A stretch of DNA of 29,177 bases from a virus, in the IMG/VR virus record IMGVR_UViG_3300030108_002614, positions 8,392 through 37,568 of that record; one strand, 5' to 3'. The notes beneath the pieces were generated by a model that was not told where the DNA came from, made no database searches, and saw nothing but the letters and a program-made list of their open reading frames with translations. Positions 3,772-26,931 of the stretch are shown in pieces (position 1 is the first letter of the stretch; every line of letters starts with the position of its first letter). The translations under genes and the position numbers were made by a program.

Positions 3772-4080
3772 TTAACTTGTAGTGACGCTTACTGCACCTA
3801 AGCTTATTGTACCACTAATTCCAGAAGTTAAAGCTTCAGATGAGTATAAATTTCTTAGTCTAGTGCCATCAAAAGCTTGATGTATTGCGTTTGTAGTATT
3901 AAAAATTATTGCTCCTGTAGCAAAATTTAAAACCTCAACCTCTGCTTGTGTAAAAGATGGTATTTTTTCTGGGTCTACAGCAGATAAGTTTATTTCTAAA
4001 ATTCTTACCAATCTGTTAAATAATTCTGGAGTGACTTCATTAGCTGCTATAGGCAAATTGGTTTCTAATATTTTAGACAT
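3772..4080 (-). CDS. small virion-block protein, 102 aa, unknown role
   Basis: ATG at 4078-4080 overlaps the upstream stop by one base (TAATG). The protein is MSKILETNLPIAANEVTPEL..., with a helical N-terminal half (about 15-55) and a C-terminal part with FNTTNAIHQAFDGTRLRNLY. That resembles the short beta motif (NTT...Q...DGT) common in phage fibre or spike proteins. It sits between the gp10-like stabilisation protein and the internal-protein candidates in a coupled string, so a small tail or structural role is likely. No membrane segment or signal peptide is seen. Function remains unassigned. Confidence 0.7.
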   Translation of the reverse strand: MSKILETNLPIAANEVTPELFNRLVRILEINLSAVDPEKIPSFTQAEVEVLNFATGAIIFNTTNAIHQAFDGTRLRNLYSSEALTSGISGTISLGAVSVTTS

Positions 4081-5990
4081 TACCTACGCCCTGATGGGTT
4101 TACATCTAATCTTGTAGCTCCTAATCTCCATTTAAAATCTTTTTGTCTTGCTGTTGGCGACAAATCATCGTCAGACTCAAAACGTAAAACAAATTGTCTA
4201 CCTCTTGTTCTGACATCATTTCTTGATGTTGTGTTCTCTATTTGAGAAGTAGAGTCAGTAGTAAGACTGTCGCCCGGACTATTTCTTTTTTTCAAAACAA
4301 CATTAATTGCAGGATTAGGAGATGTGCCTAAATCTGATAAAAAGTTTATGTCTGGAATAATTTTTTTTATAAAAGCAAATTGTTCGCCATCGGCTACATC
4401 AAAATCTCCGGACTCAATAAAAACATTTGACATTGGGCTTTCATCATCGTTTGAACCGCTTTCATGGTCATACAAAAAATTATTAGAGCTTACTATGCCA
4501 GAAGCTATAGGATTAGAATTATCGTAATCATCTAACCAAGCGTATCTTGTTAGAGAGCCAAGGCTCCAAACATTTTCTTCGTAGTTATAAATAACATATT
4601 TAGAAATTTCTCCACTGCCTTCTGAGAGCGATGGATAAAAAAACCACACTTCTGAAAATTGAGCGTTCAATCCGGCATAACATTTATAGGCTTGAGACAC
4701 ATCTAAGTCATCAAAAACATGGTTTTGTAATGTACAAGGTATTTTGTTTACCACACCATTGTAAATGTAAAACCCAGATTGACTCATAAAAAACACGCCA
4801 CCACTAGAATTTACAAAACCTTTTGGAGAAATTAAACCAACACCTTCGTTGATTAAATTCAATGAGAAAGTAAGAGGTGGACCAATAAACTGCATACTAT
4901 AAATAGCTGTGTCTGTCCAAATGACAACTTCTTGTCTAGTTTTTGTACCAGCAATAATTTCAGAACCACTTGAAAGCCTTAAACTTCCAGCTGTATTAGT
5001 AGTTTTTGGTTCAAACTCTAATAAATTTTCTTGGTCAGAAAAAGCAATGAACATGGCATCTGCTTGACCTGTTCTTGCTGTGCCAGCATCGTTTAAAGTG
5101 TCAGCTCCCAAAACAATTAAGTGTCTATCAGTTTCAGAAGTTAAAACTTGTAAACCTTTAGTAGGAACTAAATTTGCACCAGAAGTAGTTGATAAATCTA
5201 CAGCTCTAGCATTTAAACCATCTGACTCAACCCATCTGTATATGCTTCCAGCTCTAGGATTTATAATTAAGTCTTCGCCATAGTTGTCATGTGACCAAAG
5301 CCTTAATTGATTACTTGCTGATAAAGAAGAGGTGCTACCAAAAGTTCCTTCTCCCCAGCCATTTACACTCCAACCTGTTCCAGACAAAAAAGTATCTGTG
5401 CCAATATTTAATTGATACTTTCCAACTACACTTGAGCCGCCATTGCCAGAGTCGTTTGCATTTGCTGTGACTGTAGAGCCGCTGGTATCTTTAGCTGTAA
5501 TAGTGTATGAATTAACAGAAGCAATAGTTGCTATTTCATATTCTTGATTTAAAACAGCAGCGGTAATATTTCCGCTTCCACCTAAAGCGGCAGCTCCGCT
5601 AAAAGTCACAAAATCTCCTGCGGCAGCACCATGATTTGTGTCTGTCACAGTTAAAGTCGAAGAGCCATTACTTGCCGCAAAAGTGACATCTCCCGCAGCT
5701 GTTGTTAGCCTTAAAGGAGTAATATCGTTGTAAGCATTTCCTTCTTTTATATAATATTTTGTTGTAGTGCCAATACCTAAATATTTAGTACCTTCAACAG
5801 AAGTCCATGCAATTAAAGCTCTAGCTTTTCCCAAAAAACTATTTGCTGAGTTTTTAATCCAGCCGCCTATTTTTTCTACTTTGTTTTTTCTAAACCTTAT
5901 AAAATTACCATCAACCCAGCCGCTTTCGTTAGAAAGTTCTGTTTCTTCTTTGTTGATACCAGCTTTAAAATTGAATTTTGTAAGAGCCAT
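4080..5990 (-). CDS. P22 gp10-like packaged-DNA stabilisation / tail hub protein
   Basis: 636 residues opening with MALTKFNFKAGINKEETELS and continuing with GWVDGNFIRFRKNKVEKIGG. This opening is typical of a family of podovirus structural proteins related to the P22 gp10 stabilisation factor, which plugs the portal-adaptor channel and anchors tail parts. The rest is beta-rich, with Gly/Ser/Thr repeats around 120-190 that look like an Ig-like insertion, and short aromatic segments expected of a propeller-type fold. The start has no Shine-Dalgarno; a small hairpin ends six bases before the ATG. It lies downstream of two adaptor-like genes, consistent with connector assembly. Assignment to the gp10-like group is from family knowledge and layout; structural protein status is firmer than the exact role. 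Confidence 0.7.
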   Translation of the reverse strand: MALTKFNFKAGINKEETELSNESGWVDGNFIRFRKNKVEKIGGWIKNSANSFLGKARALIAWTSVEGTKYLGIGTTTKYYIKEGNAYNDITPLRLTTAAGDVTFAASNGSSTLTVTDTNHGAAAGDFVTFSGAAALGGSGNITAAVLNQEYEIATIASVNSYTITAKDTSGSTVTANANDSGNGGSSVVGKYQLNIGTDTFLSGTGWSVNGWGEGTFGSTSSLSASNQLRLWSHDNYGEDLIINPRAGSIYRWVESDGLNARAVDLSTTSGANLVPTKGLQVLTSETDRHLIVLGADTLNDAGTARTGQADAMFIAFSDQENLLEFEPKTTNTAGSLRLSSGSEIIAGTKTRQEVVIWTDTAIYSMQFIGPPLTFSLNLINEGVGLISPKGFVNSSGGVFFMSQSGFYIYNGVVNKIPCTLQNHVFDDLDVSQAYKCYAGLNAQFSEVWFFYPSLSEGSGEISKYVIYNYEENVWSLGSLTRYAWLDDYDNSNPIASGIVSSNNFLYDHESGSNDDESPMSNVFIESGDFDVADGEQFAFIKKIIPDINFLSDLGTSPNPAINVVLKKRNSPGDSLTTDSTSQIENTTSRNDVRTRGRQFVLRFESDDDLSPTARQKDFKWRLGATRLDVNPSGRR

Positions 5991-10538: not shown

Positions 10539-12461
10539 ATGGATAACTTCGATTTAGATTGGTCTCCAAAGCAAAAACTACCTGATGGCAGGTATGTAGA
10601 AGAAGCAGAGCTTAATAAAAATAACAGTGAGCTTTTTTGGTCTGTCTGGAGAGAAGAAAAAATTGCTCTTAAAAAGTCAGGGTATGCTGTGTCAAAAGAT
10701 AATGACGATGTTTGGATTGTTAAAAGATACTCTGATGATTTAAACATTTTAGAAAAATCACAAGCTGTAGACTCTGATAAAAGTTATCCGGTGCCAGCTG
10801 GTCTTGATTACTATGGTTATCAAAAAGCCGGCATTGAGTATTGCTTAGACAAAGATAACATTTTGATTGGCGATGAAATGGGCTTGGGCAAAACTGTTCA
10901 AGCTATTGGCGTTATCAACGTCAATAAACCAAAAAATGTTTTAATTGTTTCGCCAGCTTCTTTAAAGCTTAATTGGAAAAAAGAATTAGAAACTTGGTTG
11001 GTAGACCAAAGAGATATTCAAGTTATCATGTCTGGTAAAGACAGCCTTAATGATAAGCAAGATATTGTAATTATCAATTATGATGTCTTGCAAAAGTATC
11101 AAGATTTGCTTGATAAGAAATGGAGTCTTGTCATTATGGATGAGGTTCACTATCTAAAAAATCCTGATGCCCAAAGAACTAAAGCAGCTTTAAGCGTTCA
11201 AGCAGACAAAAAAATTATGCTGACAGGAACTCCTATTCCTAACAGACCTATTGAGATACAAGCAGTAGCTGGCTATTTAGACAACAAATCATTTGGTAAT
11301 AGATTTGGGTTTGGTAAAAGATATGCTGGATTACACAAAAAAAGAGTCAGCAGAACTAGAGAGGTTTGGGATTGGAGTGGAGCTTCTAATTTAGATGAGT
11401 TGCAAAGAAGACTTAGACAAAGCTTCATGATAAGAAGAAAAAAAGATGAGGTTTTAAAAGACTTACCAGCTAAAGTAAAACAAATTATTGAACTGCCTTA
11501 CGAGCTTTACAAAAAAGAAATCAAAGCAGAGTATTCAGCTTTTGAAGATTACAACAAAAAAAACCAAAATCCTAATGTAGACCCTTACAGTCTGGATGCA
11601 GAACAATTTTCTTCTAAAGTAGATTTTATAAGCATGTCATCTGAAAGAAGAGCAACTGCTGAGAAAAAAGTTAAAGCGGTTGTTGAACACCTTGAGTCAT
11701 TCAATGAGCCGGTTGTTGTAATGGCACACCACAGAGATGTTATTGCTCAGTTAGAAATAGAACTTAAAAAGCAAGATAAAAAAGTTGTGGTGCTTACCGG
11801 AGAAAAAAATCAAGTAGAAAGAAATGAAGCAGTTGAGGCTTTTCAAAATGGTCAAGCTGATGTCTTCATTGGCAGCATTAAAGCTGCTGGTGTTGGTCTT
11901 ACTCTAACCAGAGCATCTAAAATGGTTTTTGCAGAGCTTGATTGGGTGCCATCTGACATAGCTCAAGCAGAAGACAGAATACACAGAATTGGTCAAGAGT
12001 CTTCTGTCTTAATACAATATATTGTTGTTGAAGGCTCTCTTGATGCAGTCTTCGCTAAAAAGATTGTTGATAAAACCAAAGTAGCTGCTAGAGCTCTTGA
12101 TAATGTAGTGGTTGAGAAAAAAATCGAGATACCAGAGCTTATCGAAGAAAACAAAGAGCTTAACAAGGTAATCAAAAAAGCTAGAGTAAAAGTCAAAGCC
12201 AATCAAATAGCTGAGTCTTTATCATTAGAAAAAGTAGAGTTGCTTCAAAAATTCATGAAGTTTCTTTCTTCAAGATGTGATGGTGCCCTAGCACAAGATG
12301 GTGTTGGCTTTAATGGTGTTGATAAAGACTTCGGTGCTTCTTTAGCAAGACAAAATAGCTGGAGCATGGCTCAACAAAAAATTGCTTACAAAATGCTTAA
12401 AAAATACAAAAGACAATTAGATGAGCTTGATGATGAAGGTTATAACATTCTTTACAATTAA
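10539..12461 (+). CDS. SNF2-family (SMARCAL1-like) DNA helicase/translocase, 640 aa
   Basis: Superfamily 2 motifs are in order: Q-tip region LDYYGYQKAGIEYCL (89-103), Walker A GDEMGLGKT (111-119), DEVH (201-204), LTGTP (228-232), a second RecA-like lobe with VVVMAHHRD (392-400), GVGLTLTRA (451-459) and QAEDRIHRIGQ (476-486). This is the SNF2/SMARCAL1-like set, so an ATP-driven double-strand DNA translocase or annealing helicase, acting in phage DNA replication, repair or recombination. The C-terminal tail (about 585-630, VGFNGVDKDFG...SLA, then KMLKKYKRQL) is an extra module I have seen on other phage DNA enzymes. It follows a small charged gene in a short rightward operon and is the only replication-type gene in the window. 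No polymerase or primase is visible. Confidence 0.93.
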   Translation: MDNFDLDWSPKQKLPDGRYVEEAELNKNNSELFWSVWREEKIALKKSGYAVSKDNDDVWIVKRYSDDLNILEKSQAVDSDKSYPVPAGLDYYGYQKAGIEYCLDKDNILIGDEMGLGKTVQAIGVINVNKPKNVLIVSPASLKLNWKKELETWLVDQRDIQVIMSGKDSLNDKQDIVIINYDVLQKYQDLLDKKWSLVIMDEVHYLKNPDAQRTKAALSVQADKKIMLTGTPIPNRPIEIQAVAGYLDNKSFGNRFGFGKRYAGLHKKRVSRTREVWDWSGASNLDELQRRLRQSFMIRRKKDEVLKDLPAKVKQIIELPYELYKKEIKAEYSAFEDYNKKNQNPNVDPYSLDAEQFSSKVDFISMSSERRATAEKKVKAVVEHLESFNEPVVVMAHHRDVIAQLEIELKKQDKKVVVLTGEKNQVERNEAVEAFQNGQADVFIGSIKAAGVGLTLTRASKMVFAELDWVPSDIAQAEDRIHRIGQESSVLIQYIVVEGSLDAVFAKKIVDKTKVAARALDNVVVEKKIEIPELIEENKELNKVIKKARVKVKANQIAESLSLEKVELLQKFMKFLSSRCDGALAQDGVGFNGVDKDFGASLARQNSWSMAQQKIAYKMLKKYKRQLDELDDEGYNILYN

Positions 12462-12463
12462 GA

Positions 12464-12487
12464 AGGGCACCCTGATTAGAGTGCCCT
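12464..12487 (+). terminator. hairpin after the helicase gene
   Basis: Perfect 7-base stem AGGGCAC/GTGCCCT with a 10-base loop, three bases after the helicase stop. It is followed by ATAATTTATAA rather than a clean T-run, so termination here may be inefficient and backed up by the second hairpin at 12552. Confidence 0.55.
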
Positions 12488-12508
12488 ATAATTTATAAAC
12501 AATATTTA

Positions 12509-12536
12509 GGGGGGAGTAAATATGAATATGGAATAA
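12509..12536 (+). other. strong SD with a 4-codon mini-ORF
   Basis: GGGGGGAG at 12509-12516 is followed six bases later by ATG AAT ATG GAA TAA. The SD is stronger than that of many genes in the window, yet the frame has four codons. It lies between two hairpins. It may be a remnant of a deleted gene or a leader; nothing longer is coded here. Confidence 0.4.
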
Positions 12537-12551
12537 TTATAAGGAAAAAGA

Positions 12552-12575
12552 AAGGGCAGGTAAATACCTGCCCTT
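12552..12575. terminator. bidirectional terminator between helicase and capsid genes
   Basis: Perfect 10-base stem (AAGGGCAGGT/ACCTGCCCTT) with a 4-base loop. Read leftward, i.e. after the capsid gene, it is followed by TCTTTTTCC, a good T-tract. Read rightward it is followed by CTTTATAA, a weaker one. It separates the convergent capsid and helicase transcripts. Confidence 0.75.
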
Positions 12576-12615
12576 CTTTATAATAGTTGAATAATAAACC
12601 CTATTATTGGTTCAT

Positions 12616-13533
12616 TTAAGCTCCTTGGGAACCATAGATACCTCTCCAATTAGAGAAGCCAAAAGAATATCTTTCTCTAGCTTTGTATCTAATGTTGCCT
12701 GTACTAAAGTCAGGCTCCATGTTGGTTTCCATTCCGGTTCTTTGGAACATTTTTAGACCTTCTCCTTGCTCTGTAATAGAAGTCAATAAGAAGAAAGCGT
12801 CTGGGTCATTAAGGTAATGATTTACTGTGTAGCCACCGGGTAATACACCTGTATTTTTGATAGCGTTTAAATCATTATCCGCAGTACCGACTCTTTGTGG
12901 AGAGTTCAATATTCTGTCAGCAACAAAAGTTAATTGTGGTGGTATCACCAATTTTGTTGCATTCACAGAAATAGTTAAACCTCTGTCGTCTGTAAATGTA
13001 GATATATCAATTAAAGCATCCTCTAATGAAGTTTCATTTAAGTCAGCCATAGTGCTAGCTCTATTAGCAGCAGTTCCACCACCTGCTAAGGGGTGGGCTG
13101 TGTTAATTAGAGAAACACCATCTCCGCCTGTAAATGAAGAACTAAACGCATTGTTTAATACGTTTGCTCCTTTTACTTCTTTAGTGTTAGCCATACTTCT
13201 AGCTAATGCTTTAGTATATCTTTTACCAAGTGAGTCATATAAATTATCCTCAACAGCTTCTTCTGTCAAAGCAAAAGCCAACGCAATAGTATCATGCGTG
13301 TATCTTGCAGTGTAAGACTCAGAAGCGTTGTCGAATACAACTCCTTGCCCTTCGGATTTATCCGGAGCCGAACCAAAACCAACGATTAATACTTCTTCCT
13401 CGAAAGCTCTTGAAGAGTCTTCAATAGAAAAAATTTCAGCATATTCTTGGTCGTAAGTATCATACTCCATACCAAAAAGTGCGTTTAAACCCGGTTCTAA
13501 TTCAGCTGCTAGTTGTGCTCTTGAAATTGCCAT
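12616..13533 (-). CDS. major capsid protein (HK97-like fold expected), 305 aa
   Basis: ATG at 13531-13533 with GAGAGG ahead. It opens MAISRAQLAAELEPGLNALF. The N-terminal helix, the E-rich arm, the middle GGTAANRASTMADLNETSLE...TFTDDRG block, and VIPPQLTFVADRIL followed by a C-terminal RYKARERYSFGFSNWRGIYG are typical of phage major capsid proteins of this size. Length (305) suits a small HK97-fold protein. It follows scaffold, a decoration-like protein and another small gene, the usual order. It is the last leftward gene before a strong terminator, so capsid expression is separated from the virion genes further left. Confidence 0.85.
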   Translation of the reverse strand: MAISRAQLAAELEPGLNALFGMEYDTYDQEYAEIFSIEDSSRAFEEEVLIVGFGSAPDKSEGQGVVFDNASESYTARYTHDTIALAFALTEEAVEDNLYDSLGKRYTKALARSMANTKEVKGANVLNNAFSSSFTGGDGVSLINTAHPLAGGGTAANRASTMADLNETSLEDALIDISTFTDDRGLTISVNATKLVIPPQLTFVADRILNSPQRVGTADNDLNAIKNTGVLPGGYTVNHYLNDPDAFFLLTSITEQGEGLKMFQRTGMETNMEPDFSTGNIRYKARERYSFGFSNWRGIYGSQGA

Positions 13534-16537: not shown

Positions 16538-19014
16538 GATTTCCTCATTTTAGCTTGTAATTCTGTAATTTTTAATTCAGCTTGTTGTTTCATTCTATCT
16601 ATAGCTAATTGCAGTTTATCATCTGCTATAGCTTTTTGCACATCAATCCTTTGTTGTTGCAGCTGTGACTCAACCATTTTGTTTTCTTGATTTTGTTCAA
16701 GCTTGGTTTCAAATTGTTGTTGCTCCATATCAAGCTCTTTATCTTTTAAATCAAGTTCTTGTTTTCTGATTTCTACTAATGGGTCTCCAGATGGTTGCTG
16801 AATACTTGCTAAAAACTGTTGAGTTAGTTGAGCCATAATTGGAGAACTAATTTGGTCTAACATCATTTGCATTTGTTGTTGTAAAGTCTTAGCTTCTTCT
16901 GGAGAAGATTGCTGCATAGCCATCTGCATTTGTTCAAACTGTTGTTGTAATTCTGGAGGAATTTGTTGTTGTGCTAACTGTGCTGACAAAAACTGCAAGT
17001 GTTGCATAACATGAGAAACTATTAAAGACTGAATACCTTGATTTTCTTGAACTGTTTTTAATAAAAACAAACTTTGATGAGCCGCTACATGTGCTTCATG
17101 ATTTTGTTCCGGAAAAGCTTGAGCTGGCTGCCCTAATAATAAACTACTATTTTCTAATCCAGCATCTACCGGCATAGGTGTCATATCTGGAGGTGGTTGT
17201 AGCAGGCTTTCAACATTATCTACTCCTAAAGCTGCATACATTCTTTTGTAAGCCTCATAAATACCTACAGGACCATGAACATCAGGATTGGTTGTGACCA
17301 TTTGTAAAAGCTCTTGTGCCATTGTAATTCTTTGGCTTTGTGAAAATATATTAGGGTCAGATATAGGAACAATATCAATTCTATCGTCAAAGTCTGATAA
17401 TTTAATTTGTCTTGGACCAGAACCTGTTTCAAAGTCATATTCTGGAGGCAAATATTCAGCAAATACGCCCGCTAATAAACTAAACTCTAATCTTTGTGAG
17501 TAATGTAATCTCTTATGAATTGCAGACATTACTTTTGTGCCTCTCTCTAACAAGGCAACTGTTGTGCCTACAGGCATAGCTTGGTTCATATCTCCTACGT
17601 TCATGTCTGAAATAGCAGCAAATCTTTTACCAGAGTCTACTAAAAGACCAAGCAGCTGCATCAATACATTACTAGGTTCTTTTATAGGAAGAGGTATTAA
17701 GTTTTCTCTAAGACTACCTCCGGTAGTGTCTATATCTCTAAACTCACCGGGCTGTAAAGGCTCTGCTTCATCTCTAATCCTCATGCCTCTAGCTTTAAAA
17801 CCGGCTGGTAAATTAGCTAAAGTTCCTGCATCTATTAATTGTCTTAAAATAGATGTAGAAGCCTTAGATAAGCCACCAATCATGTGTGAAAGACCTAAGC
17901 CATAAAATCCTAATCCCGGTAAAAATTTATATTGTATGAAAAAATTAATTTTGTTTTTTAAAGGGTCATTAGGATTGTAATTTCTTCTTATAGATAAAAC
18001 TTTGTAGGCATCTCTATCTATAGTGACTATGTAAGGAAGTTTAAGACCGGTTGGCTCGCCCATTTCGTCTACATCTTCAAAACCTTCTAAATCTAAAATT
18101 GTGTGAACTTCGTAAATTGTTCTGTTTCTATCCTCAGCATAACTTGGTTCTATACCTTGTATGTCATCAACTTCTTTTTCAACTTCTGTTTGTTCTCCAT
18201 ATATATCGTCTGGTAAATCTATATTTGAATAAAAGCCGGAAAGTTGTTGTTTTTTAATTTCATTTTTTGACATGCTTATTGCATGCGTAATTCTTTCTGC
18301 ACTTGTTAAATCAGCTGCTTCGTAAGGAACTATTAAATCCTCTGGAGGAACAAACTTAGATACAGCTCTATTTAAAACAAAATCAAAATAAACTTTTTTA
18401 AAAGCAGAGCCTGCAAGAGGCAAATAAAATAAAAGCTGGTCAAGTTCTGGGTCGTATTCTTTCATTACATTCATGATGTAATAATTCATAAACTCTTTTA
18501 CTCTGTCAGCTTGTGACTCAGTATCTGCGTTTCTTAGACCTAATATTTGTGTTTTAACAGGTCCTTTTGCAGGTAATAATTCTTTATATGCTTGAGCTTG
18601 AAATTGTGTGACAGCTTCTGCCAATATTGGATGGATTACTCCAGAGCTACCTTCAAAAGGTTGCGACCTTGACTCGTCAAATTTCATTCCTAAATATTTA
18701 AGACCATCTGTATAGGTGTCTTCCCAATCTTTTCTTGACTCTAAATCATTTTTAATTGAACCAATTAAATCTGTTGCTAATTTAGATAATATGTCGGAAT
18801 TTAAAAAGTCTGCTAAATTAGCATTAAAATCAGTTTGCACAGTTTCTTCTTGTGCAAAAATTTCTTCATCTGCCAAGACTCCTTCTTCTGTCACAAGAAT
18901 TTCAGCAGCTTCTTTAATAAGCTCTCCTCTTGGCTTATCTACTTCTACCGATGTAATGTTATTAGACTCAATAACATTTAGGTCATCTTCTGTGCCTAGT
19001 TTTTTTTCAATCAT
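16534..19014 (-). CDS. portal protein, P22-like, 826 aa
   Basis: Large portal with an acidic N-terminal arm (1-60), then the characteristic SRKDWEDTYTDGLKYLG and RSQPFEGSSGVIHPILAEAV (about 92-132) and QFQAQAYKELLPAKGPVKTQ. The middle contains the wing/stem region (e.g. YKFLPGLGFYGLGLSHMIGG and ASTSILRQLIDAGTLANLPA). The last 180 residues are very Gln-rich with coiled-coil character (QQIPPELQQQFEQMQMAMQQ). The long C-terminal extension suggests a P22-like barrel. The portal forms the dodecameric DNA gate at one capsid vertex and binds terminase and adaptors. It follows terminase and a small gene. The start lacks an SD. Confidence 0.9.
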   Translation of the reverse strand: MIEKKLGTEDDLNVIESNNITSVEVDKPRGELIKEAAEILVTEEGVLADEEIFAQEETVQTDFNANLADFLNSDILSKLATDLIGSIKNDLESRKDWEDTYTDGLKYLGMKFDESRSQPFEGSSGVIHPILAEAVTQFQAQAYKELLPAKGPVKTQILGLRNADTESQADRVKEFMNYYIMNVMKEYDPELDQLLFYLPLAGSAFKKVYFDFVLNRAVSKFVPPEDLIVPYEAADLTSAERITHAISMSKNEIKKQQLSGFYSNIDLPDDIYGEQTEVEKEVDDIQGIEPSYAEDRNRTIYEVHTILDLEGFEDVDEMGEPTGLKLPYIVTIDRDAYKVLSIRRNYNPNDPLKNKINFFIQYKFLPGLGFYGLGLSHMIGGLSKASTSILRQLIDAGTLANLPAGFKARGMRIRDEAEPLQPGEFRDIDTTGGSLRENLIPLPIKEPSNVLMQLLGLLVDSGKRFAAISDMNVGDMNQAMPVGTTVALLERGTKVMSAIHKRLHYSQRLEFSLLAGVFAEYLPPEYDFETGSGPRQIKLSDFDDRIDIVPISDPNIFSQSQRITMAQELLQMVTTNPDVHGPVGIYEAYKRMYAALGVDNVESLLQPPPDMTPMPVDAGLENSSLLLGQPAQAFPEQNHEAHVAAHQSLFLLKTVQENQGIQSLIVSHVMQHLQFLSAQLAQQQIPPELQQQFEQMQMAMQQSSPEEAKTLQQQMQMMLDQISSPIMAQLTQQFLASIQQPSGDPLVEIRKQELDLKDKELDMEQQQFETKLEQNQENKMVESQLQQQRIDVQKAIADDKLQLAIDRMKQQAELKITELQAKMRKS

Positions 19015-19018
19015 TTAA

Positions 19019-19231
19019 TTAATGCAAGACTCTTTGTTTTTGTTCAATAGCAAAAGCAATTATACTTTCTTCTAAATATTTGTCAGTTTCTATAGTATCA
19101 ATTATTTCTCCATCAATAAACAAACCTTGTGCGTCTGCTATACCTTGTGCTTTTTCTAAATTTTCAGCATAAATACTAGGTCCTTCGTAAGCAACTCCAT
19201 CATGTAAAAAGCTGGTTAAGAAAATTTTCAT
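19019..19231 (-). CDS. small protein between terminase and portal, 70 aa
   Basis: ATG at 19229-19231, one base after the terminase stop. It opens MKIFLTSFLHDGVAYEGPSI and continues with YAENLEKAQGIADAQGLFI, a mixed alpha/beta layout. No terminase small-subunit helix-turn-helix is seen and its place after the large subunit argues against that role. Close stop/start spacing with its neighbours puts it in the packaging operon. Function unknown. Confidence 0.65.
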   Translation of the reverse strand: MKIFLTSFLHDGVAYEGPSIYAENLEKAQGIADAQGLFIDGEIIDTIETDKYLEESIIAFAIEQKQRVLH

Positions 19232-19232
19232 T

Positions 19233-20720
19233 TTAGTAGTATATCATTCTATCTTTTCTCAAGCCCTGCATTTCTTCTTGATAATCTTCATGCAAAGATA
19301 CAAAGCCTCCTTGTCTAAATCTCATTAAAGCCATAGTAGAGCTATCGCAAAAATCATCATAGTCGCCAAAAGGAAAGGAAGCCATTTCTTCTATTACATC
19401 TTCTGCAAATTTTTCTTCTGGTGCCCAAACCATGCCAGATTCAAAAATAGGTGCAACGCTGTTCATTCTGGCTATTTTGTCTTGTCCTTTGCTAGGAGAG
19501 TATGATGTGACAGGTATGCCCATCCTTCTAAGCTCTTGAGCTAAAGGCGTTCCGGAAGCTTTAGCTTCAATCAATACACAATCTGGTTCCCAATATTTAT
19601 ATTCTTCGTAGGCTTGTTTTTTTAACTCAGGAAAATCAACTCTAAATCTTTTTGCGTCAAGTAAAATAATATTTGAAGAGCCATCATCTTCGCTTTCAAA
19701 AACTGCCCATGTAGTTATGGCACTATAGTCAGCAGTTTCTTTTTTTGAAAAAGCAGTATCATAACTTTGTATTACATAGCTGTATGGCGGAACTCTTTCT
19801 CCATGCCATGTTCTCCACCACTCTCTTTTTACTATACTACCTTCTTCTGCTGTAGGATTTTGTAGCCATTGAGAGTTCCATTTGCTGATAGGCAGAGATG
19901 CTTTAACACCAAGTAATTCTTCTTTTTTCCAAAACTCTCCCCACAAAGGATTGTTTGTTTTAGGCATTAAAGCTGGAAATTCAACTATATCCCATTGGTC
20001 AGCGTTTTCTTCTCCTTGTTTTTTTAAAAGTTTACCAACTAAATCTTTAGTGCTCCATCTGGTCATAACTATAATAATAGTTCCGCCCGGCTGTAATCTT
20101 TGTCTTGGACCAGATGTGTACCAATCATAACAAGACTCCAAAGCTTTTGGAGACAAAGCATCTTGCTCAGAATGAGGGTCGTCAATTATTAATAAATCAG
20201 CACCACGACCTGTAATTGCTCCGCCAACACCAGCATAGAAAGCTTCGCCTTCTTGATTGGTTGTCCATCGACCAGCACTTTTATTATCAGCTTGCAAGCT
20301 GAGGTTAGGAAATATAAATTTGTAATCTTCGCTATCAATTAAGTTTCTTACTTTTCTGCCAAACCTTACAGCCAATTCTGCTGTGTGAGTACATTGTATT
20401 ATTTTTAAACTGCCATTTAAGCCCATCAACCAAGCTGGTAAAAAAGTAGAAGCAAATTCTGACTTAGAGTGTCTTGGCGGTAAACAAACAATTAATCTTT
20501 TAAGTTTGCCCTGTGCAATTCTGTTAAATTTTTCTGCAATTATTTTGTGATGTTTGCCTTGTATAAAAGCATCACCCCACATGTGTTTTACAAATTTTAA
20601 AAAATCTTTTTGACAACCATCTTGTTTATCTATTTGTTCGTATCTTGATAAAAGAGTCATTGCCTCTTCTTTTTCTGAGGGAGATAAAATATCAAAGTCT
20701 TTAAACGATATATCTTTCAT
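19233..20720 (-). CDS. terL: terminase large subunit, 495 aa
   Basis: ATPase motifs: an LPPRHSKSE Walker-A-like loop (80-88), LLIIDDP Walker B (176-182), and a coupling region with TIIIVMTRW (214-222). The nuclease domain carries SYDTAF with D321, LIEAKASG with E385 and the DDFCDS patch (455-460), the RNase H-like acidic set. It drives DNA into the prohead through the portal and cuts concatemers. The ATG at 20718-20720 has no SD close by; instead a large inverted repeat lies eight bases upstream. No recognisable small subunit is next to it. The assignment is very secure. Confidence 0.95.
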   Translation of the reverse strand: MKDISFKDFDILSPSEKEEAMTLLSRYEQIDKQDGCQKDFLKFVKHMWGDAFIQGKHHKIIAEKFNRIAQGKLKRLIVCLPPRHSKSEFASTFLPAWLMGLNGSLKIIQCTHTAELAVRFGRKVRNLIDSEDYKFIFPNLSLQADNKSAGRWTTNQEGEAFYAGVGGAITGRGADLLIIDDPHSEQDALSPKALESCYDWYTSGPRQRLQPGGTIIIVMTRWSTKDLVGKLLKKQGEENADQWDIVEFPALMPKTNNPLWGEFWKKEELLGVKASLPISKWNSQWLQNPTAEEGSIVKREWWRTWHGERVPPYSYVIQSYDTAFSKKETADYSAITTWAVFESEDDGSSNIILLDAKRFRVDFPELKKQAYEEYKYWEPDCVLIEAKASGTPLAQELRRMGIPVTSYSPSKGQDKIARMNSVAPIFESGMVWAPEEKFAEDVIEEMASFPFGDYDDFCDSSTMALMRFRQGGFVSLHEDYQEEMQGLRKDRMIYY

Positions 20721-20728
20721 TTTTTAAC

Positions 20729-20770
20729 GAGCAAGGAAGTTGATAGTGAACGCTTGATACTTCCTTGCTC
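20729..20770. repeat. 12-base perfect inverted repeat before terL
   Basis: GAGCAAGGAAGT (20729-20740) and ACTTCCTTGCTC (20759-20770) pair perfectly around an 18-base loop, ending eight bases from the terL ATG. Neither direction has a T-tract, so it is not a standard terminator. It could be an RNA-processing hairpin, a terminase recognition (cos/pac) element or a protein-binding site. Confidence 0.65.
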
Positions 20771-21246: not shown

Positions 21247-21615
21247 TTACTCCACTTCTGTAATAGTCCTGTAATAAACAACAACTTCTTTAAGTTCGCT
21301 TATGTACCTTTTCAATTCTTGCATGTTATAAGACATTAGTTCGTAATCAGGAACAGACATGGCTAAAAAAACCACTGTACCATTTTGTTTTTTCATTTCT
21401 TCTACAAACTCATCAAAGTTTTTTTTAGACACTACATACCAAAAAGGCTCTTTCAAATCTAAAGCAGTTGGCAAGTTTGGATGAATTATTTTTCTCTCCA
21501 GAGGAGAAGAAATCATTTCAACTTTATTTGGTATCAGACTGCAACTTAAAGTCATCAGCACTATCAATAATCCTGCTAATTTCTTCAATGTTGTTAAACA
21601 CTTGTTTTGTTCCAT
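21247..21615 (-). CDS. probable outer-membrane spanin lipoprotein (Rz1-like role), 122 aa
   Basis: ATG at 21613-21615 preceded by AAGGG. A basic N-terminus and hydrophobic segment (LAGLLIVLMTLSC) end in a Cys at residue 25, an imperfect lipobox. The mature part contains a Pro-containing linker and WYVVSKKNFDEFV, then VVFLAMSVPDYELMSYNMQE, close to the domain found next to Rz-like genes in many phages (FALTPxGYExLxxNMAEL-like). The first 92 bases overlap the i-spanin gene in another frame, as spanin pairs often do. It would link the outer membrane to the i-spanin in the final step of lysis. Family fit moderate. Confidence 0.6.
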   Translation of the reverse strand: MEQNKCLTTLKKLAGLLIVLMTLSCSLIPNKVEMISSPLERKIIHPNLPTALDLKEPFWYVVSKKNFDEFVEEMKKQNGTVVFLAMSVPDYELMSYNMQELKRYISELKEVVVYYRTITEVE

Positions 21616-21916
21616 TGTTTACCCTTGTTTGTATTAAATTTGGTTTTGCTATCGCAAGTTTTGTTAAATTATGCCTTCTAAAAATAGCCAAATAATTATC
21701 CATTTCTTTTTGGATTTTTTGGTTTTTTGCTTGTAAATTTAATAAGCTTTTTGATTGCAAAGCAAAGTCTTTTTGTAATTTGTCTAAGGTTTGTTTTTGT
21801 TGTGCGTCTCTTGTTTCGTATGCGATATTTAATTTTTTTAAATTTTGATTTTCATACCACATATACGAAAGACCAGCACTCATAACAAAAATAATTCCAA
21901 ATAAAAATTTACTCAT
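21524..21916 (-). CDS. probable inner-membrane spanin (Rz-like role), 130 aa
   Basis: ATG at 21914-21916. A single N-terminal membrane anchor (MSKFLFGIIFVMSAGLSYMW) is followed by a long periplasmic coiled coil (about 24-85, e.g. QKQTLDKLQKDFALQSKSLL), the standard i-spanin plan. The C-terminal end overlaps the start of the lipoprotein gene by 92 bases. It sits between the holin-like genes and the endolysin. Upstream is a 190-base gap with a candidate rightward small RNA. Sequence identity of Rz proteins is low, so the call rests on topology and context. Confidence 0.65.
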   Translation of the reverse strand: MSKFLFGIIFVMSAGLSYMWYENQNLKKLNIAYETRDAQQKQTLDKLQKDFALQSKSLLNLQAKNQKIQKEMDNYLAIFRRHNLTKLAIAKPNLIQTRVNNGTKQVFNNIEEISRIIDSADDFKLQSDTK

Positions 21917-21959
21917 AAAAATACTTTAACATAATTTTATAATTTTTAGTAAATTTATG

Positions 21960-21990
21960 TTGCATATAGTAAAAAATTGTGTAGTATAGT
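21960..21990 (+). promoter_or_regulatory. rightward promoter for the candidate small RNA
   Basis: TTGCAT (21960-21965), 19-base spacer, TATAGT (21985-21990). The block aligns gap-free with the helicase promoter (10188-10218): TTGCA is conserved, and AAATTGTGTAGTATAGT matches AAATAGTGTACTATAAC at 13 of 17 positions. All protein genes around it run leftward. Confidence 0.55.
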
Positions 21991-21995
21991 AATTG

Positions 21996-22085
21996 ATATT
22001 TAATGACCTCGTTATTTTTAAATATCATACTCGTTAGGAAACGTCAGGTTTTTTCAATTAATTTTCTCTGGCGTTTCCTTTTTTT
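21996..22085 (+). ncRNA. candidate small non-coding RNA, about 90 nt
   Basis: The 190-base gap between the i-spanin and holin genes holds a rightward promoter (21960-21990). A start near 21996 would put the 5' end at a perfect 10-base stem (TGATATTTAA 21994-22003 / TTAAATATCA 22018-22027). A linker leads to a 12-base terminator stem with one G-U pair (22036-22047 / 22068-22079) and a run of seven Ts (22079-22085). CTCGTTA appears twice, once in the first loop (22008-22014) and once in the linker (22030-22036), so both copies may be single-stranded. A 29-codon frame overlaps it but reads through the terminator. No known RNA family was recognised by eye. Confidence 0.55.
22036..22085 (+). terminator. 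Rho-independent terminator, rightward
   Basis: AGGAAACGTCAG and CTGGCGTTTCCT form a 12-base stem with one G-U pair and a 20-base loop, followed immediately by TTTTTTT. Read leftward the stem is followed by AACGAG, not Ts, so it serves rightward transcripts although the neighbouring genes run leftward. Confidence 0.8.
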
Positions 22086-22106
22086 ACAATAACTATAAAT
22101 ATTTCT

Positions 22107-22436
22107 TTAATCATATTCTTTTATTTTGGTTTTTCCGCCTCCTGTTCCGGCATACAGTCCAAACCATGCAGCTCCTGCTCCGACAACAACAGAAACAAAT
22201 CCACTTTGTTCTAAATTAGGCGTTTCTAATTGCATAAACCAAACACAAGTTTTGTAAAGTAATACAATATAAATTGTAATAAATAATCTTGGAAAAATAC
22301 GCCAAGAGTCAATAGCAACCGCTAAATCAATCCAGCTTTTAAATTTATTTGGTTCGTATTTTTTTTGAGTTGTGTCTAGTTCTAGTTCTAGTTTTACTGT
22401 TTTTTTGGGCTTTTCAATAGTAATATTTTCTTCCAT
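22107..22436 (-). CDS. holin-like protein, two membrane segments, 109 aa
   Basis: Start placed at the ATG at 22434-22436 (MEENITIEKPKKTVKLELEL), with GGAAG upstream; a TTG at 22464 would give a longer form. A polar N-terminus is followed by SWRIFPRLFITIYIVLLYKT (about 44-63, membrane segment 1) and GFVSVVVGAGAAWFGLYAGT (about 79-98, segment 2), then a short basic tail. The RxFPRLF...WFM...VVGAGAAWFG pattern matches holin-like proteins I know from marine and vibrio phages. It would form the inner-membrane holes that release the endolysin. It is followed by the small-RNA gap and then the spanins. Confidence 0.7.
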   Translation of the reverse strand: MEENITIEKPKKTVKLELELDTTQKKYEPNKFKSWIDLAVAIDSWRIFPRLFITIYIVLLYKTCVWFMQLETPNLEQSGFVSVVVGAGAAWFGLYAGTGGGKTKIKEYD

Positions 22437-22462
22437 GACGCTTCCATTTTTTTTTATCACTA

Positions 22463-22687
22463 TCAATTAATATATGTTAAATTTATTACTAAATTTAAAA
22501 AATATCCAACTACTCCTAATAAAGTAATAACCATAAAAACCAACACTCCTCTTATTGACTTGTTTACAGACTTTACTGCTGTTTCAATAGAGTCAAGTCT
22601 GCGATAATTTTCTTTCCAGCGTTGTTCGCATGCAGCTTCGTGTGCACTTAGTCTTTTATCTATTTCTTGTATTTTAACGTCTGACAT
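22463..22687 (-). CDS. XhlA-like lysis membrane protein, 74 aa
   Basis: ATG at 22685-22687 overlaps the upstream stop in TAATG. The N-terminal half is a charged helix (EIDKRLSAHEAACEQRWKEN) and the C-terminal half has one membrane segment (VLVFMVITLLGVVGYFLNLV, about 48-67). This coiled-coil-plus-anchor plan is that of haemolysin XhlA-type phage proteins, which act with holins. It lies directly before the holin-like gene. The assignment rests on topology and context, with no catalytic motif expected. Confidence 0.6.
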   Translation of the reverse strand: MSDVKIQEIDKRLSAHEAACEQRWKENYRRLDSIETAVKSVNKSIRGVLVFMVITLLGVVGYFLNLVINLTYIN

Positions 22688-22830
22688 TAAAAATAATTTT
22701 TTAAACTATTCCAATATTTTTTTAAAAATAAAATAATTTTATCGTAAAGACTAGTGTGGTTTACTTTTAAATATTGATTAGCAAAGACTCCAAGTATTGC
22801 TATTATTACTATCCATCCTAATGTTTCCAT
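22687..22830 (-). CDS. 47-residue single-pass membrane protein of lysis cassette
   Basis: Short leftward gene with ATG at 22828-22830 and GAGG six bases ahead; its TAA overlaps the next ATG (TAATG). It begins METLGWIVIIAILGVFANQY, a membrane segment, and continues with a basic amphipathic tail (LYDKIILFLKKYWNSLKNYF). SD, coupling and hydrophobic profile support a real gene. Its place directly before the XhlA-like and holin-like genes suggests a lysis helper, such as a pinholin or antiholin; that is inference. No family recognised. Confidence 0.65.
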   Translation of the reverse strand: METLGWIVIIAILGVFANQYLKVNHTSLYDKIILFLKKYWNSLKNYF

Positions 22831-26679: not shown

Positions 26680-26931
26680 ATGGAGTACATAATTGAAAAG
26701 TTTTTTGAGTGGGAAAATGGTCCTGCTGTGGTAGCAGTCAATGAGCAAGAAGATTATATGGTGGGTTTTTTTATACCTTACGATAGTGTCACTGACGATT
26801 GGGTTGTTGCTGATGGTGCTCAACTTTATGATTTTTATATAGATGGTATGCAGCTTACTGAGGGAGAATTTGAAGCTGAATTTGGCATTATTGGGGAAGA
26901 TTTGCCTGAGCTACCTATGGACAAAGTTTAG
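26680..26931 (+). CDS. small, very acidic protein, 83 aa, opposite strand to neighbours
   Basis: Rightward gene among leftward ones. The ATG at 26680 lies six bases after TATACT, without an SD, which fits a leaderless transcript. The protein (MEYIIEKFFEWENGPAVVAV...) has 21 Asp/Glu, only two Lys and no Arg, so a charge near -19, plus many aromatics and little Cys. That composition is like DNA-mimic anti-restriction or other inhibitor proteins, but no family is recognised. The stop overlaps the stop of the 607-residue gene by four bases, tail to tail. It may be an independent moron-type gene or partner of that neighbour. Coding status is supported by a clean frame, promoter-like sequence and codon use. 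Confidence 0.6.
   Translation: MEYIIEKFFEWENGPAVVAVNEQEDYMVGFFIPYDSVTDDWVVADGAQLYDFYIDGMQLTEGEFEAEFGIIGEDLPELPMDKV

Follow-up and report, generated by a model that had tools for sequence, protein, structure and literature searches.

We propose that a gap in the lysis region of a marine phage carries a small-RNA gene that is transcribed in the direction opposite to the adjacent genes. Judged from sequence and predicted folds, positions 21994-22085 on the rightward (+) strand probably constitute a real phage gene of this type; the family that it represents would probably be new, although its kind is known. In this model, a sigma70-type rightward promoter (21960-21990), arranged back to back with a putative leftward promoter for the spanin, endolysin and terL genes, would drive synthesis of an RNA of about 90 nt ending at an intrinsic terminator at 22085. 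The element has the features of a phage-encoded intergenic small RNA, i.e. a predicted promoter and an intrinsic terminator of its own, a length between 50 and 200 nt and no conserved ORF, the small frames on both of its strands not being conserved among members. It therefore offers a concrete short target for strand-specific marine metatranscriptomes, namely a conserved, terminator-ended RNA beside lysis genes, and a way to ask whether relatives of Pelagibacter phages rely on RNA for the timing of lysis or of the early-late switch.

The element and its genomic setting

The window, i.e. the whole stretch of 29,177 nt that was analysed, is part of the 37.6-kb IMG/VR virus record IMGVR_UViG_3300030108_002614. 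Its terminase is 58-61% identical to the terminases of Pelagibacter phage HTVC027P and phage 023Pt_psg01, and the source is a marine phage related to Pelagibacter phages. From 12616 onward, the long ORFs run leftward. The element lies in the gap 21917-22106, between the gene for a small membrane protein and the Rz/Rz1 spanin pair and endolysin, with terL behind. The upstream neighbour (22107-22466, -) is a holin-like small membrane protein gene that matches phrog_10198, a family of unknown function (E 3.7e-23), and we infer the holin role of its product; the downstream neighbour (21524-21916, -) is an Rz-like i-spanin gene (phrog_739, E 2.9e-9). In the window, the element overlaps no lysis coding sequence, being placed between 21916 and 22107, and the only frame that it overlaps is an 18-codon remnant ORF (22058-22114, -) left by a deletion of ~515 bp relative to the relative L004. 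A preliminary description had placed the element on the strand opposite to all neighbours. This is correct for the adjacent genes, but there may be a real rightward ORF of 83 aa with an ATG (26680-26931, +), which fills the space between two leftward genes and was called at 36629 in the 56-kb relative G001 as well. Elsewhere in the window, two leftward terminator-like hairpins (12464-12576) separate the leftward capsid gene (12616-13533) from a rightward SNF2-type helicase gene (10539-12461) that is set inside the late region.

On the gene strand, the spanin gene is preceded by a putative leftward promoter, TGTTAAAGT-ATTTTT-ATG (21916-21950, -), which is divergent from the small-RNA promoter. 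With six bases between TGTTAAAGT and the spanin ATG, transcription from this site would give a leaderless spanin mRNA. Among the matches listed, 17 of the 50 regions upstream of Rz contain the motif TG[CT]TAAAGT, which, as judged by eye, falls within a coding frame in some of them (e.g. L010 and L048); in G001 it is rare, with two sites on the - strand, one of which is the spanin site, and none on the + strand. A separate 25-nt leader, GATAGAATGATATACTACTAAAATG (19229-19253, -), has two exact copies in G001, at 29188 (-) and 43664 (+), where it precedes a 70-aa gene adjoining terL and a 310-aa rightward gene, and a copy with two differences in G005; it resembles a phage-specific promoter from which leaderless mRNAs would be made.

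Read directly, the promoter pair TTGCAT-19-TATAGT, the 10-base 5' hairpin and the linker are all present as had been described. The -35-like hexamer TTGCAT (21960-21965, +) is followed by the -10 region TAGTATAGT (21982-21990, +), in which two hexamers can be recognized, TATAGT (21985-21990) at a spacing of 19 nt or, alternatively, TAGTAT at a spacing of 16 nt. Taken alone, this promoter is not beyond chance, with 14 promoter-like sites in 4 kb vs 15.3 expected in shuffles; TTGCAT-19-TATAGT itself is absent from this list because a 19-nt spacer is outside the scanned range of 16-18. The 5' hairpin (21994-22027, +) has a perfect 10-bp stem, in which TGATATTTAA (21994-22003) pairs with TTAAATATCA (22018-22027), and its loop (22004-22017) holds the anti-Shine-Dalgarno (anti-SD)-like core ACCUC. 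After the linker (22028-22035), the rightward intrinsic terminator (22036-22085, +) consists of a 13-bp stem formed by AGGAAACGTCAGG (22036-22048) and TCTGGCGTTTCCT (22067-22079) with two G.U wobbles, an 18-nt loop and a tract of seven Ts (22079-22085).

The second hairpin with its seven Ts is thus also borne out, with a stem of 12-13 bp, and its assignment as a terminator is based on the fold, a genome scan, a Markov control and compensatory pairs. The stretch 21985-22090 folds at -26 kcal/mol vs -11.3 +/- 2.6 kcal/mol for shuffles (z -5.65), and none of 200 shuffles folds as well. When a stem of at least 12, at least six G-C pairs and at least six Ts in eight positions were demanded, one site was found in G001 and none in 20 Markov genomes of equal size. 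Among the terminator-like sites of G001 and G000, the stem of the element terminator is the longest, at 13 bp, and this terminator is not preceded by any rightward gene; two other G001 sites fold more strongly (-18.4 and -18.2 vs -16.6). Outside the window, L190 has a further rightward hairpin followed by Ts, GCAGCTCTACCTCAGATTGAGATAGAGCTGC-TTTTTT, at 5353-5383 (+); it corresponds to G000 3815-3845 and may be coding on the other strand.

Conservation, covariation and strand

Relatives were sought in IMG/VR using terL, holin-like and spanin searches together with DNA patterns. Among the matches listed, the element is present upstream of the spanin gene in seven of 50 distinct upstream regions, the window included. 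Four of these are close members, i.e. the window, the nearly identical phage L002, L004 and L165, while L005, L006 and L007 form a diverged sub-group. In the other 43 regions, four of which are short (L014, L036, L042 and L047), the element was not seen. Promoter, 5' hairpin and terminator are kept on the same strand in both diverged sub-groups, with compensatory changes, and this supports the earlier proposal of a rightward RNA of about 90 nt.

A 32-nt promoter block containing TTGCAT is identical in the four close members, and their hairpins vary. The -10 region reads TAATATAGT in L004, TAATATATT in L165 and TATAAT with a 16-nt spacer in L005-L007, where the -35 hexamer is aligned with TTGCCT/TTGCCA. 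The promoter is stronger in relatives, with 11/12 in L006 (TTGCCA-16-TATAAT) and 10/12 in L005 and L007; the level of 11/12 is reached four times on both strands of G001. By blastn, L005-L007 align to the window on the promoter side only (21918-21988 at most), without hairpins or terminator. Their 5' hairpin is replaced by AUAAAUUU-CCUCCAU-AAAUUUAU, their T tract on the + strand is weak (TTTCTGC), and the other strand of their RNA is nearly as stable (-28.0/-27.6 vs -26.7/-24.5). Two further small ORFs are present between the holin-like gene and the element in L004-L007, both of which the window and L002 lack as a result of the deletion. The second of these ORFs represents a common family in marine virus contigs (at least 600 stretches).

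The conservation of the parts bears on whether the terminator might stand on its own. The element might be a bare rightward terminator, which would prevent stray antisense transcripts from entering the late region, with a chance promoter before it and no RNA function. The weak promoter in the window and the chance-level frequency of promoter-like sites are in line with this view. However, the promoter hexamers are present in all seven records and are stronger in L005-L007, and the 5' hairpin, a structure distinct from the terminator, shows conservation that includes a compensatory change. This retention of the promoter and the 5' hairpin makes a bare terminator less likely, and we consider it unlikely overall. 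The rightward RNA could alternatively be a small mRNA, as the ATG at 22003 (+) opens a frame of 29 codons in the window. However, no SD-like site is seen before this ATG, translation would start at the hairpin loop, in L002 an 11-nt indel puts the frame out of register, and L004 and L165 lack the ATG; a small mRNA is most improbable.

Other searches delimit how widely the element occurs. Examination of the sequence following the neighbouring small ORF, which comprised 79 distinct regions among 102 loci, yielded no further member; apart from the members, only L263 and L272 have opposite-strand hairpins after this ORF, and these are unrelated. Among 50,697 phage records, from which records very near the window were possibly excluded, no nucleotide relatives of 21500-22700 were detected. 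For the isolated relatives L182-L185, no spanin or endolysin is annotated in the stretches taken, and the covariance-model search of 55 sources gave no match up to E 1. A strict terminator-stem pattern had no match in species genomes, and thus no copy was found there. When 1.43 Mb of loci, overlapping ones included, were scanned with a descriptor that requires a CCTCC/ACCTC hairpin and a terminator after it, 14 distinct matches were obtained; six are the element (L001, which is the window, L002, L004, L005, L006 and L165) and eight lie elsewhere, and one random 1.4-Mb control gave two matches. The promoter scores of these matches, for which the hexamers scored differ from those named above, are 11 for L006, 9 for L005, 8 for the other four members and 0-8 for the eight non-members. 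A stricter version of the scan returned L004 and L165 only. No Rfam 15 family matches the window at gathering level, nor does any match 21900-22150 up to E 5 or L002, L004, L005, L007 and L165 up to E 0.5.

Compensatory changes among relatives, which had been proposed as a check, are found in both the 5' stem and the terminator stem. In an alignment of the four close members, 104 of 104 cells are standard pairs, with two double-changed pairs. All ten pairs of the 5' stem are kept in all four, with one compensatory change from A-U to G-C; the terminator stem has A-U/G.U exchanges; and a middle 4-bp hairpin of L002, L004 and L165, which by alignment and pair count is missing from the linker of the window, has a U-A/C-G exchange. 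Paired cells and covariation were matched in 25 of 500 shuffles of this alignment and double-changed pairs in 129. In a plain MAFFT alignment of all seven records, 93.2% of the 88 terminator-stem cells are standard, again with two double-changed pairs. None of 500 shuffles matched the cell counts or the covariation score and 402 matched the number of double-changed pairs; sliding this alignment by one column gave three double-changed pairs, yet only 64.8% of cells were paired. With seven records, the power of covariation is low. A covariance model built from the four close members and searched in 55 sources, a part of all loci, had L005 as its best match outside those four (E 0.063), at the homologous place and on the homologous strand; L007 (E 0.52) scored no better than two other places, and L006 was not found up to E 1.

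Wobble pairs distinguish the two strands. G.U pairs on the + strand, which read A.C on the gene strand, occupy five positions, of which four belong to the terminator stem and one to the middle hairpin. The reverse, A.C on the + strand and G.U on the gene strand, is seen at a single position, namely the base of the terminator stem in L005-L007. On balance, this asymmetry speaks for a rightward RNA. It also bears on a function of the gene strand, in which GGAGG in the hairpin loop would serve as the SD sequence of a small ORF before the spanin gene, or the hairpin would be a leftward terminator. In L006 and L007, GGAGG is followed at good spacing by an ATG, the L006 ORF having 29 codons and overlapping the spanin start, and the leftward hairpin of L005-L007 has TTTT behind it and one additional G.U pair at the base. 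However, the ORF comprises only 10 and 11 codons in L005 and L007, respectively, no ATG, GTG or TTG is seen by eye beside the SD-like site in the window, L002, L004 and L165, and on this strand the four close members have no T tract in addition to the A.C mismatches at five stem positions. A gene-strand leader or small ORF fits L006 but not the other members, and we regard it as quite improbable.

An action of the rightward RNA in cis deserves more weight. The element could be a cis-acting antisense RNA or a transcriptional road-block against leftward read-through from the tail and holin genes into the lysis genes, and would then reduce any early or premature expression of the lysis genes, through interference or cleavage by RNase III. 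In line with this idea, the element diverges from the putative spanin promoter, its terminator overlaps the 3' end of the upstream small ORF in L004-L007, and phage antisense RNAs over lysis genes are known, as described in part of a review for PAK_P4as15 and the endolysin gene (PMC12197685). However, overlap with a lysis coding sequence, by which membership in this class is defined, is absent in the window. Moreover, simple antisense needs neither a conserved loop nor conserved stems, yet here the stems compensate and the core of the loop persists. We assign a minor but appreciable probability to a cis-antisense RNA or to interference acting in the lysis region.

The loop core and a possible mode of action

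The preliminary description had drawn attention to CTCGTTA as a possible target-binding sequence, present twice in segments expected to be single-stranded and shared with the terL leader. The two copies exist (22008 and 22030, +), but the first is partly paired in the predicted fold; the window has five occurrences in total, the others being at 20731 (-) before terL and at two places elsewhere on the + strand. Conservation of the motif did not hold up. L002, the linker of which is 11 nt longer, retains only the loop copy, and the second copy in the window arises where these 11 nt are missing; L004, L165, L005, L006 and L007 have CTCGTTA in neither place. CTCGTTA was therefore rejected as a conserved binding motif. 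A role shared with the terL leader is likewise not supported: the copy in that leader has the same sense and is not a complement, and it is changed to CTCGAAG or CTCGAAA in L005-L007.

By contrast, a CCUC core in the 5' loop is common to all seven records and starts 46 or 47 nt after the start of the -35 hexamer. It takes the form ACCUCG in two records (the window and L002), ACCUCCU in two and UUCCUCC in three. This core resembles the anti-SD end of 16S rRNA, although the match is only five letters long in the window and L002 (ACCUCG, not CCUCC).

Provided that the small-RNA gene exists, an anti-SD mode of action is a tentative possibility. The CCUC core in the 5' loop would then act in trans by pairing with strong ribosome-binding sites. 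The likeliest targets would be the phage's rightward genes with AAGGAGGU-type sites, which would be damped, while the late and lysis genes, mostly with weak sites, would be spared; an additional cis action against leftward read-through is conceivable. A further-reaching version, which we hold to be rather unlikely, is that the RNA, made next to the lysis promoter, serves as a late-stage translational off switch for strongly SD-driven phage or host genes, with the weak-SD late genes and the leaderless lysis genes continuing to be expressed. If true, this would be the phage's own early-to-late switch at the level of translation.

The distribution of SD sequences in G001 is relevant to these ideas. 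Matches of at least six letters to the SD sequence precede 11 of the 19 genes in the rightward block (39.5-46.7 kb) vs two of the 34 leftward genes (9.4-38.8 kb), with gene and start calls being heuristic and "early" and "late" being inferred from position. Thus, an anti-SD RNA would hit the rightward block harder. Pairing energies between the loop and start sites were compared with two types of controls. With shuffled loops, the mean was reached by 21% in G001 and 16% in G005, and the top value by 16.5% and by none of 200, respectively. With controls that keep the core, the top value was reached by 42% (G001) and 6.3% (G005) and the means by 67% and 74%. Because the energies are not beyond these core-keeping controls, the anti-SD mechanism is at present hypothetical. 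Nor do individual targets stand out. The best start site in G001, that of a 79-aa gene at 52591 (AAGGAGGTCA, -16.0), is not convincing given that share of core-keeping controls at the top value, and the same applies to the best G005 site, that of an 80-aa gene at 16704 with 11 paired bases (-16.3), which is reached by the 6.3% of core-keeping loops.

Comparison with known small RNAs

Small RNAs of virulent marine phages seem hardly to have been described. Among the papers listed on pelagiphage small RNAs and, as considered by title, on Pelagibacter, phages and antisense RNA, no such RNA was found, which is not proof of absence; one study on structured RNAs of Pelagibacter reportedly treats host RNAs. 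In phage lambda, the 6S RNA adjoins the lysis genes and lies on their strand. The element is similar in that it would be a short terminated RNA near lysis genes, and differs in being on the opposite strand.

The lambda 6S RNA is among the phage RNAs named in part of a review, which also covers phage RNAs acting by pairing, i.e. PAK_P4as15 (over the endolysin gene), OOP and aQ of lambda, sar of P22 and c4 of P1 (PMC12197685). Of these, PAK_P4as15 may delay lysis and P1 c4 uses loops to pair around a ribosome-binding site (PMC12197685). Unlike the PAK_P4as15 antisense RNA as presented there (PMC12197685), the element of the window is located in a gap, clear of any lysis coding sequence.

With respect to the loop, the relevant comparison is with the Rhizobiales RNAs SmelA075 and SmelA099, for which part of a study describes anti-SD loops, CCUCCUCCC, on variable stems (PMC3927594). 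As in these RNAs, a hairpin loop of the element exposes an anti-SD core while the stem sequences diverge (PMC3927594), and in all seven records this core is in the apical loop and is conserved while the stems change. However, SmelA075 and SmelA099 have three or four loops with a fixed 9-mer, whereas the element is phage-encoded and has one loop with a variable CCUC core (PMC3927594). Several CCUCCUCCC loops are not present in the members, which have a single loop with a shorter core. Thus, the element at most works like a SmelA075-type RNA and is not a member of that group.

Finally, sRNA1 and sRNA2 of PAK_P3 are late intergenic small RNAs of ~100 nt from a virulent phage, as reported in part of one paper (PMC4933390). 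They were seen in RNA-seq (PMC4933390), whereas the RNA reported here is predicted from sequence. The likeness to these two RNAs lies in a length of ~100 nt, an intergenic location, a phage origin and few possible phage targets (PMC4933390).
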